51,126 bases of DNA from Candidatus Kapaibacterium sp. (GTDB taxonomy: Bacteria; Bacteroidota; Ignavibacteria; Kapaibacteriales; UBA4661), in assembly GCA_025455065.1 (NCBI GenBank), contig JALONG010000031.1, positions 1 through 51,126 of the forward strand, given 5' to 3'. Both the position numbers and the translations under genes were made by a program. The notes beneath the pieces were generated by a model. That model saw only the letters and a program-made list of their open reading frames with translations, ran no database searches and had not been told where the DNA came from. Numbering within the stretch: position 1 is the stretch's first letter; every line of letters begins with the position of its first letter. Positions 3,524 through 51,126 of this stretch are shown here, piece by piece.

Positions 3524-6500
3524 ATGGTTATACAAAAATTGTTTACACAAGAACTATATCGGATTGTAAGATTTAATGCTATTGCCTTTCTTGTTACAAG
3601 GCATACAATCACGCTTTGCAAGAGTTTTGTTTTCACGGTTAAACACATTTCCACTCTTCTTGCCCCTGTCGTGCTTTTCTTGGCAGTATCTCATTGTTCC
3701 ATGCCTCAATTACAAGCAGAGTCGCCCTCCAACGGCAGTATTGACTCGTTAGAACGACAAATTTCCGCACTTCCTTCTGATAAATCAAAGGCGGACGCTA
3801 TCATTGCGCTTGCTTTGGAACATTGGAATATGGGCATTGAGGAAGAAATGTTGCAAGAACATTTGAAAACCCTCAAAACAATTACCGAACGCTTGAAATA
3901 CCGAAAAGGTCATGCGTATTGGCTCATTGCTATGGCTAGATATTATGAAAAGCGGGATAATATCAAATTTGGTAAATTTGCCTACGATGCGCTTGAACGT
4001 ATCAACGAGTTTCAAGACCCCACAGGCAGGGCGCTGGCTGAAAAGAACATTGCTTCCTTTCATTTTTACGCTGCCGATTATGACCTTGCTACCCGCTATT
4101 TTCAACAAGCATTGGAGCGATTTCAAGAAACGAATAATCGCCCACAAACCGCATGGACACTGTATTCTCTGGCAATAATTTATGGGTATCAGGGGAACTA
4201 CGTCTATTCTCTTTCGCATCAATTCAAGGCATTACGAATCTTTGAGACCTTGAACATTCGGCACGGAATAGCAGCATCTAATGAGGATTTAGGCATTGCA
4301 CTTTTGCAAATCGGTAGCATAGGCAAGGCGCTTGAATACCTTCAAAAAGCCGGAGAGGAATACGGTGAATCGCTAAAAGGCACAGAACTTGAGCGGTTAG
4401 CGAGCATTTACATCAATATCGCGTCTTGCAAACAGCAACAAGGCTCACTTGTCGAAGCGCTTGATTATCTTGCCAAAGCAAAGCAATACACACTGAAACC
4501 TCAAACAACTCAAGGCTTTCTGGCACGCTCTTCGCTGGCGGATGCACTAGGGAACATCGCCCAAAAGCAGCAAAACAAAAATTTAGCAGTTGAATATTTC
4601 CAAGAGGCGCTCGCGGTGCTTGATTCTGCGGGGCTTCGTGGGAATGACCTTAATTATGCGCTTTACCGCATCGCTTCTATCGAATTTCAGGAAGGCAGCA
4701 TTGCAACAGCTGAACGCACATTCCATCGAATGCTTGCACGATCATTGGAAAGCGGAGATAAGCGTAATTCTGCACGGGCGCTACTTTGGTTGGGCAAGGT
4801 CGCCTTCAGGCAAAACCAATTTCCAAACACGGAGCGATTCGCAAAAGAAGCATTTGCAGCAGCACAAGCTATCGGACAGTTAGAATTTACCACATCCGCA
4901 GCAGAACTGCTCTCGACGGTGTACGAAAAGCAAGGGAATACAGCGCTTTCATTACAATACGCTAAAACAGCACGAAAATATCGTGATTCCATTGCAACGC
5001 TGGAGCGGACGCAACAGCTCGCCGGAATGGAAGCTATTTACACGCTCGACAAAGAACGCGCTCAATTAGAAAACCTGCGTCGTGATAACGAAACTCAGTT
5101 GCTTGCAACACAACGCCTTCGCCTGATACTTTGGGGCGGTTTGTTGGCGCTGGTTCTTTCTTTTGTAGCATTAGTCACGTTTGTTCGCTTGAATAACCGG
5201 AGCAAACGTGCTAACGAAGAATTAGCTCGCCAAACAGAACGTATCAAGGCAATAAGCCTTATCGGGGCAGAAATTGCCGCAAATTTGAATTTGCAAGATG
5301 CAATCGTGATGATTTATTCCTACATCAATCAACTCATGGACGCGCCTATTTTCAATATCGGTGAGTATTTGCCCCATGAAGAAGCAATTCAAATGCGGTA
5401 TCTTATTGAAAACGGTGAATTTGTTGCACCGCCTCGGGTCAGTATGCTTGATTCATTACGTCCTGCCGTTAAGTGCGTGCTTACACGTTCCCCCGTTGTC
5501 ATCAATGATGGAAACATACCCGTTTTAGTCGGTGCAAAGCCTGAATCCTTGGTTTATGTACCGCTTGTTGCCGGTGAGGTCGTTATTGGCGTTTTTAGTG
5601 TGCAAAGTTTTAAGCAACAAAGTTACCCACAACAAAATGTGGATATGCTTACAGCTATCAGCGCGTACATAGCAACAGCCATTACCAACACCAACGCTTT
5701 TGAACGAATTAAAGCCCAGCAAGCCGAACTTGAACAACAAGCAAGCCTTATTCAGCTCAATAACGTAGCGCTTTCGGAGCGCAATATCACCTTAGAACGC
5801 TTAAATCACAAAATTCAGGAAAATATCGCCTACGCTCAAACAATTCAAGAAGCCGTTCTGCCAAGTGTCAGTGAATTAACCGAGCAGTTACCGAACCATT
5901 TCGTGTTGTACAAGCCTATGGAGGTGATTTCAGGCGATTTTTATTGGATGCAGCGCATGGAATTTGCAACGCTCGTGGCTGTGGTGGATTGCACCGGACA
6001 CGGCATTCCGGGTGCATTTATGAGCATGATTGGCAACGACCTTTTGAACCAAATTGTTCTCGAAAAAAACATCACCAATCCCGCATGGATTCTTACCGAA
6101 CTGCATTATGCAGTGCGTCATGCACTCAGGCAAACCAACAACATAGAAAGTAATCAAGACGGCATGGATATTTGCCTTTGTAGAATTGATGCAGAAGGAA
6201 TTACATTTGCAGGGGCGCGAAGACCGTTGTATATTGTGCAAAATGGTGAAATACTGACCATAGAGGGTGACAGAAAGCCTATTGGCGGCTTCCAACGCGA
6301 GGGAAAACGTGCATTCACTTCCAAACGTTTGGACTTGGATAAAAGCACTCCGACAATGCTCTACCTCACAACGGACGGCTATGCCGACCAACACAATGCA
6401 AAGCGCGAAAAATTTGGCATCAAACAACTCACCGAGTTATTTGCGGAGATTTCGGGTCAGACAATGTTTGCGCAGCGCGAGCATTTAGGACAATCGCTTG

Positions 6501-33082: not shown

Positions 33083-33213
33083 CGTTCAGAAAAAAAATTC
33101 GTTGAAAAAAATTCGTTGGAAAAATATGGTGAAACGGCGAAAGACTCACTCAATTCACAAGGGAACAAATGAGCCTTTCCTCGAACCATAAACAGGTAGA
33201 GAAGCGTGATTTA

Positions 33214-34502: not shown

Positions 34503-34640
34503 AATCATAAAGCCCTCCAAATCTTTTGTTTTTACACGCTGTTTTTTTTCATCAAGTACGACAGGCTTCAATACTGTGTCAGCAATGAAAAAGCAATAAC
34601 GTCATTTCAAAAAGCACTATGAACTACTACAATCGAACTA

Positions 34641-35882
34641 CTACAATCTGACTTGAATCGTCATCAAAGATTCGCCCCGTTGCACTTGCACGGGTATTAT
34701 TTCGCCCGCTTTCAGTTTCCCCAAAGCCTGCATATATCCTTGAATGTCGGCAATATCACTATCACCGATTTTGAGAATCACATCCCCGCCCTGAATCCCT
34801 GCTTTTGCTGCCGGACGACCTTCCGAAACCGCATCAACCTTGAGACCTTTACCGGAATAGCTATAAGCAGGCATCACGCCGAGTGAGACTTTGTAGGAAT
34901 GTCCTGTTTGCTGTTTTACGCGAGTTTGTTGAAATGCTAGCTTGGGTGCGCTTTGCAGGCTGTCAATAATCGTTTTTACATAGCGAAGCACTTTTGTTTG
35001 TCCGGCGAAATTGATACGTTCAATATCGTCCGAAGGCTTGTGATAATCGCCGTGAACGCCGGTAAAGAAAAAGAGAACAGGGATTTTTTTGAGGTAAAAT
35101 GAGGTGTGGTCAGATGGTCCAACGCCTGATGAATCCAACGCTAGAGAAAACTCGTTACTAAACGAGCGTTCAGCAATAGACTTCACCAACGGCTCGAATG
35201 TGGGACTTGTTCCCGTACCGCCCACAACGAGTTCTTTTTTTGCCTCGTTAAAGCGTCCAATCATATCCAAATTCACCATACAATGCACGGTTTCAAGCGG
35301 GATCGTGGGATGTTCGCCAAAATGCTTTGAACCGAGCAAACCGAGTTCTTCCCCAGAAAAGCCCATAAACAGGACGTTGTAGGGTTCTTGAACATTATTC
35401 GTCGCATAGATTCTGGCAAGTTCCAACATTCCCGCCACTCCCGACGCATTATCATCCGCGCCATTGTGGATTTTCCCTTTGGGTTCTGAGTCGAGCGAAG
35501 AGCCGTCGTAGCCCAACCCCAAATGGTCAAAATGCGCACCAATGACGATTGTATGTGGTTTACCGTTGTCAAGAAAACCAATAACGTTCATCGCAAGGCG
35601 GTTACTATCGGGCAGAACATCATTTTTTTTGATAAGTGGAAACACTTGGAAATACAACGCTTTGTCGCCTTTTGGCTGAAGACCCAACGAGCGAAAATAC
35701 TCGGCAATGTAGTCCGCAGCACGTTTTTCGTCGGGTGTGCTTGTACCGCGACCTTTGAGGTCGTCGCTTGCCAAAAAGGTAATATGCTTGCGAAGCAAGG
35801 TAGAATCTATGCTTTGCGCTTTTGTTTGCTGAATTGCTACCAACCCCAGCAAAAGAAAAACAACCCAAAGCAAAGTGTTCAT
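34641..35882 (-). CDS. Secreted M28 zinc aminopeptidase with C-terminal PDZ domain
   Basis: The enzyme (about 413 residues) has a signal peptide (LLWVVFLLLGLVAIQQTKAQ). A complete M28 metallopeptidase domain follows. The zinc ligands and catalytic acids are seen in IVIGAHFDHLG, NGADDNASGVAGM, FSGEELGLLGS, VNLDMIGRF and VHGDYHKPSDD. A PDZ domain (VDAVSEGRPAAKAGIQGGDVILKIGD) ends the protein. It should trim peptides in the periplasm or outside the cell. ATG 35882 is chosen for the signal peptide and because ATG 35942 would leave only 24 bp to the divergent antitoxin gene. Confidence 0.92.
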   Translation of the reverse strand: MNTLLWVVFLLLGLVAIQQTKAQSIDSTLLRKHITFLASDDLKGRGTSTPDEKRAADYIAEYFRSLGLQPKGDKALYFQVFPLIKKNDVLPDSNRLAMNVIGFLDNGKPHTIVIGAHFDHLGLGYDGSSLDSEPKGKIHNGADDNASGVAGMLELARIYATNNVQEPYNVLFMGFSGEELGLLGSKHFGEHPTIPLETVHCMVNLDMIGRFNEAKKELVVGGTGTSPTFEPLVKSIAERSFSNEFSLALDSSGVGPSDHTSFYLKKIPVLFFFTGVHGDYHKPSDDIERINFAGQTKVLRYVKTIIDSLQSAPKLAFQQTRVKQQTGHSYKVSLGVMPAYSYSGKGLKVDAVSEGRPAAKAGIQGGDVILKIGDSDIADIQGYMQALGKLKAGEIIPVQVQRGESLMTIQVRL

Positions 35883-46178: not shown

Positions 46179-46200
46179 ATACTGAACGTTCGATTAGTAA
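46179..46200 (-). promoter_or_regulatory. TetR-type operator upstream of hydrolase copy 1
   Basis: It begins ATACTGAACG, identical to the first ten bases of the tetR-promoter site, and ends TTAGTAA. It is 5 bp from the ATG and overlaps the first unit of a 14-bp tandem repeat. Confidence 0.55.
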
Positions 46201-46236
46201 AATTCGATTAGTACAATTCGATTAGTACAATTCGTT
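46189..46236. repeat. 14-bp tandem repeat (three copies plus a partial)
   Basis: Units TTCGATTAGTAAAA, TTCGATTAGTACAA and TTCGATTAGTACAA, then a partial TTCGTTAG, follow one another from 46189. Each unit repeats the right half of the TetR-type operator, so the array may add half-sites in the promoter. Confidence 0.85.
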
Positions 46237-46263
46237 AGACAGAAGTTGAACAATAACAGCACG

Positions 46264-48651: not shown

Positions 48652-50709
48652 TTACTCCGAAACACTTGGCAGAATAACTGTAAATGTAGCACCATTACCT
48701 GCCGCACTCTCCAATGTTACTGTTCCCCCAAGCATCTCTGCCAATTTCTTCACAATCGAAAGCCCCAAACCTGTTGATTCTTCACCGCCTGTCGGCTTGG
48801 CAGAAAGTCGTGCAAATTTACCAAACACTTTCGTTTTATCGTCTTCGTTGAAGCCGGGACCTTCATCTTGAATAACGATACAAAGAGCCTTTTGCAGTTC
48901 ATTCCCTCCACAATCTACTGTCAAGGAAACATAAACAGACTTGCCTTTCGGCGAGTATTTCAGAGCGTTATCTAGGATATTTTCAATAATTTCGACAACG
49001 ATTGACTCGTCAGTACGAACAACGAGCGATTCTTGAGAAGGCGTGAACACAACTGTTATCTCTTTAGATCGCGCATGAGAGCTATGGTCGTCTATGATAC
49101 CCCGTATGCTTTCGACAATATTTACCGATTGAATATGTAATGCTTTTGCACCCTGCTCCAATGAATTGATATTGAGGAGTTTGGTAATAATGTTCAACAT
49201 TCTTTCGGATGTATGCAAAATCCGCTCACCAAAGATAGTTACACGCTCACGAGGCAACTCCATGGCAGCAAGGGACGAGGAAGCCATCATAATCGTTGTA
49301 AGGGGGTTTTTTAGGTCGTGAGCAACAATACCCAATACTTCATCCTTTTCGTAATTTAAGGCGGCAAGGCGCTCATTTGCCGAAGAAAGTTGTTTATTTG
49401 CCTCGGTTAATAATTCATTTTGGGCATCCAATTCACTATTGCTGGCTTCCAGTGCGGTATTTGCTTCTTGAATATGCTTCGATTGCACCTCAAGTTGTTG
49501 TTGTTGAACAGTGATGAGATGATTGACTTCACGCAACGAAGCCTCTGAACGGGCAATATAGCGATACCGGTGGATTGCCAAAAAAAGCAAGACTGCTCCA
49601 AAACCAATACAAACAAGCAGATAATTTCTTACGGATGTCAAACGGGACTGCTCTTTTTCGGAAAGGGCGAGTTCTTTGGCATTTTTTTCTGCAACCCTCA
49701 TCATATCAAGTGTTTTCATTCGTTCTGCGATATTCATTGAACGGAGAGAATCTCGCATCGAAGCGGTGCGGCGGTTATACACGAGTGCTTTGTCATACTT
49801 TCCTGTGGCTTCATACAACAGAGAAAGCCTTTCATTCATCAGGGCAAGATCCACAGAAGCAGGTAAACTTTCAGCTATCTTCAAACCTCGCTCTGCATGG
49901 CGAAAGGCTTCTTGAAAGCGCTTTTGGGAAGAATAAATAGCGGACAGTTTTTCCAATGAGCGAATGATATACTGCCCAATATTATCATCCTCAAAGCGCT
50001 CTAATGCTTGCTTTTGATAAGAGATTGCAGAATCGTACTGCCCCATTGCATGAAATATCGTTCCCAAATGATAATATGCAAGATTCGCATAAAATCGGTC
50101 TTTGAGTTGTAAGCCCAAATGAAGCGCTTCACGTTCAATACGTAGGGCTTCTGCATACTCAGAGCGCTTGAGTGCAATGTCGCCGATATTTCCCAAGACC
50201 AAAGCAATACCATCAGGAAATTTTTTTTCGCGGAACATGGCTAAAGACCGTGAAAAATAATCTTTAGCAATTTCCAACTTCCCTTCCTCTTTGTACAAAT
50301 ATCCGATATTATTCAGCAGAAACGCAACTTGGATATTGTCTTGAAGCAATGTGTACAGCTCAATTGCCTCTAAATGTGCATCTAAACCCGCATTATAATG
50401 CCCTTCGTACAGTGCAACAATTCCAATAATCATTTTCGCCCTAGCCTGACCTCGAACATAATGTACAGCTTTTGCTCTATTCAACGCATCGTTCGCATAT
50501 GCTAGGGCAGTATCATGGGCAGAATTTCGTACCCAATATGCAACGTCATTTATACGATTGATAATGACAGAATCAGGTGCTTTTTCAAAGATTGCCGAAG
50601 CGATAAGGTGTTTGAGGGAATCCACATGTGGAGTTTGGCTATAAAGATGTGCTGCATAGAAACAATGCAGGAAAATAACAAGTACCCCGTAGATTAAAAC
50701 CGTTTTCAT
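48652..50709 (-). CDS. TPR-containing membrane sensor histidine kinase
   Basis: The product (about 685 residues) has a signal peptide (LIYGVLVIFLHCFYAAHLYSQ). Six to eight tetratricopeptide repeats in the periplasm follow (e.g. AFLLNNIGYLYKEEGKLEIAKDYF). A membrane helix lies near residues 360-380 (LLVCIGFGAVLLFLAI), then a long coiled coil and HisKA with the phosphoacceptor His in GIVAHDLKNPLTTI (near residue 463). HATPase_c carries NALKYSP, DEGPGFNEDD, FGKFARLSAKPTGGEES and GLGLSIVKKL. The layout parallels the TPR-TM phosphatase at 3524. No response regulator is adjacent. The ATG at 50709 precedes the signal peptide. Confidence 0.92.
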   Translation of the reverse strand: MKTVLIYGVLVIFLHCFYAAHLYSQTPHVDSLKHLIASAIFEKAPDSVIINRINDVAYWVRNSAHDTALAYANDALNRAKAVHYVRGQARAKMIIGIVALYEGHYNAGLDAHLEAIELYTLLQDNIQVAFLLNNIGYLYKEEGKLEIAKDYFSRSLAMFREKKFPDGIALVLGNIGDIALKRSEYAEALRIEREALHLGLQLKDRFYANLAYYHLGTIFHAMGQYDSAISYQKQALERFEDDNIGQYIIRSLEKLSAIYSSQKRFQEAFRHAERGLKIAESLPASVDLALMNERLSLLYEATGKYDKALVYNRRTASMRDSLRSMNIAERMKTLDMMRVAEKNAKELALSEKEQSRLTSVRNYLLVCIGFGAVLLFLAIHRYRYIARSEASLREVNHLITVQQQQLEVQSKHIQEANTALEASNSELDAQNELLTEANKQLSSANERLAALNYEKDEVLGIVAHDLKNPLTTIMMASSSLAAMELPRERVTIFGERILHTSERMLNIITKLLNINSLEQGAKALHIQSVNIVESIRGIIDDHSSHARSKEITVVFTPSQESLVVRTDESIVVEIIENILDNALKYSPKGKSVYVSLTVDCGGNELQKALCIVIQDEGPGFNEDDKTKVFGKFARLSAKPTGGEESTGLGLSIVKKLAEMLGGTVTLESAAGNGATFTVILPSVSE

Positions 50710-50759
50710 TGGTGGTATCAAGTAATAATAAATCACACAGAGCCTTGAATTTACGACTT

Positions 50760-51126
50760 TCACGTTTTTTTTCCCAATAAAAAATAGGTTTTCATCCGTC
50801 CTTTGCCCTTCACATCAATTTCCCCACGCTCTTCAAAAAGAAATCGCTGTGAAATCCTCGAAATAGGTTGGTCATTGGTTGCTTGGTCATTGGTTGCTTG
50901 GTCACTGGTTACTTGGTTGTTAGTTACTTGGTTGTTAGTTACTTGGTTGTTAGTTACTTGGTTGTTAGTTACTTGGTTGTTGGTTACTTGGTTGTTGGTT
51001 ACTTGGTTGTTGGTTACTTGGTTGTTGGTTACTTGGTTGTTGGTTGCTTGGTTGTTAGTTACTTGGTTGTTGGTTACTTGGTTGTTGGTTACTTGGTTGT
51101 TGGTTACTTGGTTGTTGGTTACTTGG
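50760..51126 (-). CDS. C-terminal part of a class III adenylate/guanylate cyclase with pentapeptide repeats
   Basis: The frame is open from the right edge of the window to the TGA at 50762-50760 (122 codons seen). The last 30 or so residues, RFLFEERGEIDVKGKGRMKTY then FLLGKK, are the closing strands of a class III nucleotide cyclase domain (RG-x-I-x-VKGKG-x-M-x-TYFL). Just before them the protein consists only of the pentapeptide Q-V-T-N-N and variants (QATND, QVTSD) repeated about 17 times. The rest of the gene, including metal-binding aspartates, lies outside the window. The identification rests on the C-terminal motif. Confidence 0.8.
   Translation of the reverse strand, partial: QVTNNQVTNNQVTNNQVTNNQVTNNQATNNQVTNNQVTNNQVTNNQVTNNQVTNNQVTNNQVTNNQVTNNQVTSDQATNDQATNDQPISRISQRFLFEERGEIDVKGKGRMKTYFLLGKKT
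50868..51126. repeat. 15-bp in-frame minisatellite (about 17 units)
   Basis: The unit TTACTTGGTTGTTGG (or ...TTAG) repeats without frameshift up to the last base of the window, with the most diverged units (GCTTGGTCATTGG type) at the left end. Because 15 is a multiple of 3, unit gain or loss keeps the cyclase frame. Confidence 0.95.

Follow-up and report, generated by a model that had tools for sequence, protein, structure and literature searches.

A QVTNN-coding minisatellite in a Kapaibacterium adenylate cyclase gene as the probable expanded arm of a dispersed palindromic element

The window analysed here, a stretch of 51,126 nucleotides from Candidatus Kapaibacterium sp., corresponds to contig C86 in full, one of the 131 contigs that make up a 5.61-Mb genome. 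A tandem array (period 15, 95% matches, score 413 in TRF; Table 1) occupies the last 252 bases of the window and, because the window is the whole contig, is cut off by the contig end. Read on the minus strand, the array encodes QVTNN in one open frame that ends in RFLFEERGEIDVKGKGRMKTYFLLGKKT and a stop codon; its 17 full units comprise 13 QVTNN, one QATNN, one QVTSD and two QATND. A first-pass annotation, made from the letters of the sequence, had placed an in-frame QVTNN repeat of about 17 copies inside the catalytic domain of a class III cyclase, and both TRF and the frame reading bear this out, as the frame shared by array and cyclase, on which that proposal depends, is present on the minus strand and remains open through to the stop. 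Elsewhere in the window there are three short arrays with 14-bp units and 2.0 to 3.6 copies (33091-33124, 34621-34648, and 46189-46238).

Table 1. Features at the right-hand end of the window and the basis on which each was placed
Feature	Position	Strand	Basis
15-bp array, 16.8 copies, QVTNN; probably the palindromic element's right arm in expanded form, truncated where the contig stops	50875..51126	-	TRF and frame
Outer end of the probable right arm, units QVTSD-QATND-QATND	50871..50915	-	arm-pairing computation
Final cyclase strands RFLFEERGEIDVKGKGRMKTYFLLGKKT, including the KGKG motif	50763..50846	-	frame and a family member aligned to solved cyclases
Downstream TPR-histidine kinase gene	48652..50763 (longest open frame; codon-model start 50625)	-	

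The remaining part of the cyclase gene appears to lie on contig C123, which opens with 7 copies of the window's 15-bp unit and continues in frame through the rest of the cyclase; its one-frame product is a TPR plus cyclase protein ending ...SEDVNRALNSHWSLAIGHLSNDTKSPQATNNQVTNNQVTNN... No single contig covers the array from end to end; in line with the suggestion that the repeat may be why the sequence stops, C86 and C123 each end in the array. The ends of the two contigs can be overlapped exactly by 15, 30, 45, or 60 bp, and since the longest overlap is 60 bp, the joined array would have at least about 20 copies. With regard to gene order, the relative G007 carries a cyclase orthologue (C110:132418-134031) and, next on that strand, the region that best matches the window's TPR-histidine kinase (C110:130210-132300), which has two stops within the matched stretch. 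This order was seen in one of the five relatives searched; the cyclase and kinase matches are on separate contigs in G001, the kinase matches in G005 and G006 are partial and on contigs other than the cyclase's, and no kinase match passed the threshold in G002. Based on the matching frame, the shared array, and the gene order in G007, C86 and C123 very probably, if not certainly, represent one gene for a TPR plus class III adenylate cyclase protein.

A Pfam search identified 26 cyclase domains in the window's genome. The domain on C123 (positions 156-629) matches PF00211 above the curated cut-off (E 3.2e-55; profile positions 4-156 of 183) and breaks off close to where the contig begins, and the end of the profile that is missing from C123 is found in the window's frame. 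The motifs FVDIVGFT, KIKTIGDAYM, and YDLWGDTVNTASRM are all intact on C123, so that the catalytic motifs are present; we take these three motifs together to supply the metal-binding Asp pair, the Lys/Asp specificity pair, and the transition-state Asn/Arg. The insert comes after the last helix, the one that follows the Asn/Arg motif, and before the final beta-hairpin with KGKG, with the array stopping 20 residues ahead of the KGKG motif. While solved class III adenylate cyclases resemble the window gene in the whole catalytic fold and in the motifs, AC8 (1142 to 1146) and AC9 (1217 to 1221) have only three residues in this loop between the aligned segments, as compared to 43 residues (175 to 219) in the relative used as query and more than 100 residues in the window gene if C86 and C123 are joined. 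The loops of the closest orthologues are free of repeats, being short in G001 and G007 and longer in G002. For L091, a relative whose corresponding loop contains an entire element, AlphaFold2 predicts a full cyclase (mean pLDDT 86.3) with a best match to solved cyclases at Z 29.0; residues 186-206 and 208-212, which are within the element, have pLDDT values below 50. We read the insert as a tolerated linker that is predicted to be disordered.

The element to which the array appears to belong consists of inverted heptamers (GTCATTNGTCATT...AATGACCAATGAC) arranged as a palindrome; at many places, forward heptamers are followed by a spacer with a core like GTCARRCGACA and then by reverse heptamers. 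One way to read the 15-mer is as a pair of heptamers with one additional base, and a reading of the sequence also indicates that the pure heptamer in reverse contains TGA in every frame and that the 15-bp form can stay open. Five members were folded, four of which gave z values of -7.6, -5.2, -8.5, and -3.9; the fifth, composed of the window gene's left arm and the first array units, gave a z of -0.98, with 33 of 200 shuffles as good. The arm that this left arm matches is found across the array, at its opposite end. Positions 50856-50920 of the window pair with the left arm on C123 (106-165) in a duplex of -31.0 kcal/mol, as compared to a mean of -16.1 (sd 3.5) for mononucleotide shuffles of the right arm, none of 500 of which was as low. 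A conserved RNA structure was considered and rejected, as RNAalifold gave no more than 7 consensus pairs and detected no compensatory change. An expanded right arm, belonging to a dispersed palindromic element, is the best reading of the minisatellite; many 15-mer arrays are found without a left arm, and some of these may thus have another origin.

Dispersal of the element was apparent at several levels. A 27-mer pattern occurs at 60 places genome-wide at up to 3 mismatches versus none for the backwards pattern, and its recurrence is therefore not due to chance. The sequence TTGGTTACTTGGNNNTTGGTTACTTGG, at up to 2 mismatches, has 94 matches in the window's genome and is present in 6 of 41 genomes, all of the window's family, with no matches for the backwards pattern; the heptamer pattern was detected in 7 of these 41 genomes, again all of the window's family, with a single backwards match (in G020). 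An element model, for which 150 candidates were scored per genome, matched at least 7 of the 13 genomes scanned, with matches confined to the window's genus (G009 is not among the 13), and gave at least 60 matches in the window's genome with both strands counted. Two further observations concern the window's assembly. Contig C78 starts in a heptamer-derived coding array with SSHSSLV repeats (positions 1-102), and heptamer arrays thus end contigs elsewhere in this assembly too; contig C20 (11737-12315) carries two 15-mer arrays in opposite orientation, approximately 400 bases apart.

Outside the window's family, a TTGGTCA-type heptamer pattern was found in 9 of the 11 cyanobacterial genomes tried, counts that overstate the exact heptamer since the backwards control also matches (many times in G050, G055, and G057, less often in others). 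The element model had matches in all nine cyanobacteria scanned, which were those already positive for the heptamer. At eight sampled cyanobacterial loci, no array was found within an open frame of at least 90 codons. Seven loci from Microcoleus-type cyanobacteria (L207, L213, L214, L219, L221, L225, and L233) have heptamer arrays approximately 115 bases past the matched cyclase segment, near position 3650 and at nearly one place, probably just after the gene. A scan of viral contigs found the exact element core in two contigs, and the cluster test detected no array in either.

Among 58 element places examined, 36 were internal to predicted genes, 2 were at gene ends, 12 were intergenic, and 8 were mostly outside the overlapping gene, fractions that hold for the places examined only since the loci were fetched mostly because repeats were present. 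These 58 represent the best strand per place at 42 bits or more, from 130 rows, with L273 dropped as a duplicate of L183 and with 16 model-building sequences included. All 38 genic elements are in the sense orientation and 31 of them are in frame 0, even though an open antisense frame is available at 17; when the 14 genic training sequences are set aside, 24 of 24 are in sense. At the 12 intergenic places, frame 0 was open in 2 and some frame was open in 5, and frame closure hence provides no clean contrast. An earlier and looser count of 120 repeat clusters, from loci also fetched mostly for their repeats, classified 53 as gene-internal, 29 as intergenic, 29 as partly overlapping, 5 as N-terminal, and 4 as C-terminal. 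With regard to the 15-mer arrays, 23 of 52 were gene-internal, 5 were located at the ends of genes, and the other 24 were outside; all 23 inside genes (a few of which are in one gene or possibly in orthologues) read CCAAGTAACCAA in sense, a hydrophilic sequence of Q/N/T/S/P, and the opposite orientation was open in all 23 as well.

Host genes of the palindromic element include those for MutS (in four species), MutS2 (in two), LeuRS, TrmO, a P-type ATPase, a type ISP restriction enzyme, a TonB receptor, a GAF protein, a TamB protein, and a protein with UvrB-interaction, CarD-like, and helicase domains that is probably Mfd; 15-mer or heptamer arrays were found in genes for MetRS, CysRS, DNA polymerase III alpha, and a penicillin-binding protein, among others. 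Histidine kinases account for 15 of the 36 internal elements, located in or at the HATPase_c domain, and in six of these kinase elements the HATPase_c match picks up again at profile positions 34-36 right after the element. The idea that the repeat is a device specific to cyclase control is thus not supported, as the same kind of element is in frame in MutS, MutS2, LeuRS, histidine kinases, the P-type ATPase, and others.

The loop occupied in the window gene carries an element in 10 of the 88 cyclase domains surveyed (nine genomes), a proportion that is biased upward because six of the ten (L021 and L087-L091) were fetched for their repeats. The underlying set had 90 rows, two of which were dropped as not being cyclases, and includes 23 of the 26 Pfam hits in the window's genome. 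Across the open frames of the 88 (median 388 residues), 10 elements are in the loop and one is elsewhere, the latter being the second element of the L088 protein. The upstream catalytic motifs are kept in all 10 element-bearing cyclases, and K/RGKG is kept in all 8 that have a C-terminus. That the element is a general property of the genome's cyclases was rejected, as 22 of 23 surveyed domains in the window's genome are without it. In G009, a cyclase (L299; contig C96, about 900-988) has a stop 8 residues past its element, ahead of the final strands; this gene is probably broken.

On a domain tree built without the loop, the scatter of the element label is close to random (162 of 500 shuffles are as low); the label needs 9 changes, at least 6 of which are forced by well-supported branches, and a single clade of element-bearing cyclases was rejected (p-AU 3.4e-8). 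These 9 changes weigh against the reading that cyclases, and kinases in their HATPase_c domain, came to share element sites by duplication or gene conversion among paralogues, rather than by separate insertions, as does the observation that the nearest counterpart of the window's element is in a kinase of the same genome, with no cyclase element closer. On the other hand, 17 of 22 kinase and cyclase elements have their closest counterpart within their own host family (mean of the shuffles 7.1; none of 2000 as high), and part of the shared siting may hence reflect duplication or conversion; this comparison includes kinase orthologues, and common genome is a confounder since 16 of the 22 are nearest to an element of the same genome. 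Taken as a whole, we regard duplication or conversion as plausible, if not favored. It concerns only how the element spread and is compatible with the explanation of the array that we prefer.

With regard to the array itself, a private minisatellite, that is, a 15-bp sequence that arose by chance and slipped in a tolerant loop with no tie to any dispersed element, would account for the near-identical tandem units and for the repeat-free loops of the nearest orthologues. However, the genome and the family contain the 15-mer and its parent heptamer at many places, palindrome arms flank the array, and other cyclases have elements in the same loop; with a dispersed family found, we rejected this account as very unlikely. 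We also consider it unlikely that the array is a contingency locus whose copy number varies between cells and tunes cyclase activity. While the unit keeps the frame, near-identical units stand in tandem, and the array ends as close to the KGKG motif as 20 residues, inserts of the same kind are found in housekeeping genes, and the insert of a relative is predicted to be disordered and outside the folded core. An assembly artefact, with a collapsed or chimeric repeat at the contig end, appears highly improbable: although both contigs stop in the array, their ends supply the two complementary parts of a single gene in a common frame, the unit variants are ordered, and G007 has the same order of cyclase and kinase with a short loop. 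The first-pass annotation had attributed the array to recent slippage, which stands in part, as near-identical neighboring units fit it.

We thus consider it quite likely that the cyclase array, with its observed frame and place, its pairing flanking arms, its membership in a dispersed family of fixed orientation within genes, and its counterparts in the same loop of other cyclases, represents the slippage-expanded right arm of a coding palindrome that was inserted in the loop and is tolerated there. In the history that we propose, a small hairpin DNA element of inverted heptamers would have been inserted in a TPR-adenylate cyclase, in the loop that connects the last helix to the final hairpin, with an orientation and frame that give a hydrophilic peptide on translation (..SHWSLAIGHLSND...QVTNDQATND..). 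The right arm of the element, in which the heptamer takes a 15-bp (5-codon) form free of stops, would then have been amplified, presumably through slippage, until about 20 or more units were present. The outcome would be a long and probably disordered QVTNN linker in a cyclase that keeps its catalytic residues; the enzyme presumably stays active, and the insert is probably tolerated rather than selected. The element itself may move or may spread by recombination.

Among known systems, the closest functional likeness appears to be to the Rickettsia palindromic elements (RPE; PMC10969869, PMC3767692, PMC6649704). In-frame fusions of RPE are described as unusually frequent in Rickettsia in PMC10969869; PMC3767692 gives DNA polymerase III alpha and a phenylalanyl-tRNA synthetase subunit as examples of hosts, reports solvent-exposed siting, and describes RPE-4, RPE-6, and RPE-7 as rich in ATGAC, a motif that also occurs in the arms of the element found here. 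Like RPE and Wolbachia palindromic elements, the element described here is a short dispersed palindrome that can form a hairpin and that codes in frame, within unrelated genes, for a conserved peptide. By contrast to RPE, it is found in another phylum, in a lineage (Ignavibacteria/Kapaibacterium) outside the Rickettsiales, its arms are inverted tandems of heptamers, and a 15-bp minisatellite can develop from its right arm; as the host differs and any kinship in sequence is only putative, we did not file the element as an RPE. Eight element peptides gave only chance-level matches against NCBIfam and no RPE, in a library that may not include RPE models, and four element peptides likewise matched Pfam at chance level only.

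Heptamer repeats and coding repeats with dyad symmetry provide two further comparisons. The heptamer TAACTGA is described in PMC4679880 as common to Beggiatoaceae, Cyanobacteria, and Bacteroidetes, with no transfer mechanism evident there. While TAACTGA and the cyanobacterial STRR heptamers are dispersed and cross-phylum as is the element found here, the unit here is TTGGTCA, and TTGGTCA-type arrays were within a frame of at least 90 codons at 0 of 8 sampled cyanobacterial loci, as compared to 38 genic elements among the 58 examined here. PARCEL, according to PMC2996958, are coding tandem repeats with dyad symmetry that are thought to spread between genomes, and share the former properties with the element described here; they are characterized there by a 25-residue amphipathic motif in ORFs without assigned functions, whereas the element here has hydrophilic QVTNN units of 5 residues in known enzymes. 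Literature searches on Kapabacteria with repeats or palindromes and on coding palindromes gave no title on this lineage among the matches listed, which is not proof of absence, and a search with the repeat's own letters gave no title on bacterial repeats among the matches listed.

The interesting part of the finding is the element family and its repeated siting. Coding palindromes are frequent in Rickettsia, and the lineage described here is far from Rickettsia and has many paralogous hosts; replicate occurrences in the same loop beside empty paralogues make survival of inserts in enzymes, aimed versus tolerated insertion, and the seeding of minisatellites directly testable. We tentatively raise the broader possibility, which we hold to be doubtful as a whole, that a Kapaibacterium-related lineage harbors a spreading coding palindrome that has repeatedly entered one cyclase loop and one place in HATPase_c, that rewrites signalling enzymes with disordered inserts, that has arms growing as minisatellites, and that shares its heptamers with cyanobacteria; perhaps, as a guess, those cyanobacteria come from the same mats.

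Finally, some observations were made on other proteins. In G009, heptamer tracts of L157, L160, and L161 (also of L131, L169, and L179) are within C-terminal ends like AELEAGEHTWSLVVSHWSLVDGSYFLR, and the L160 protein matches the sorting domain Por_Secre_tail just below the cut-off. In MutS proteins from four species (L125 in the window's genome, L282 in G002, L270 in G001, and L277 in G005), the element is approximately 4-12 residues past MutS domain V, a position that looks as if it had been inherited.
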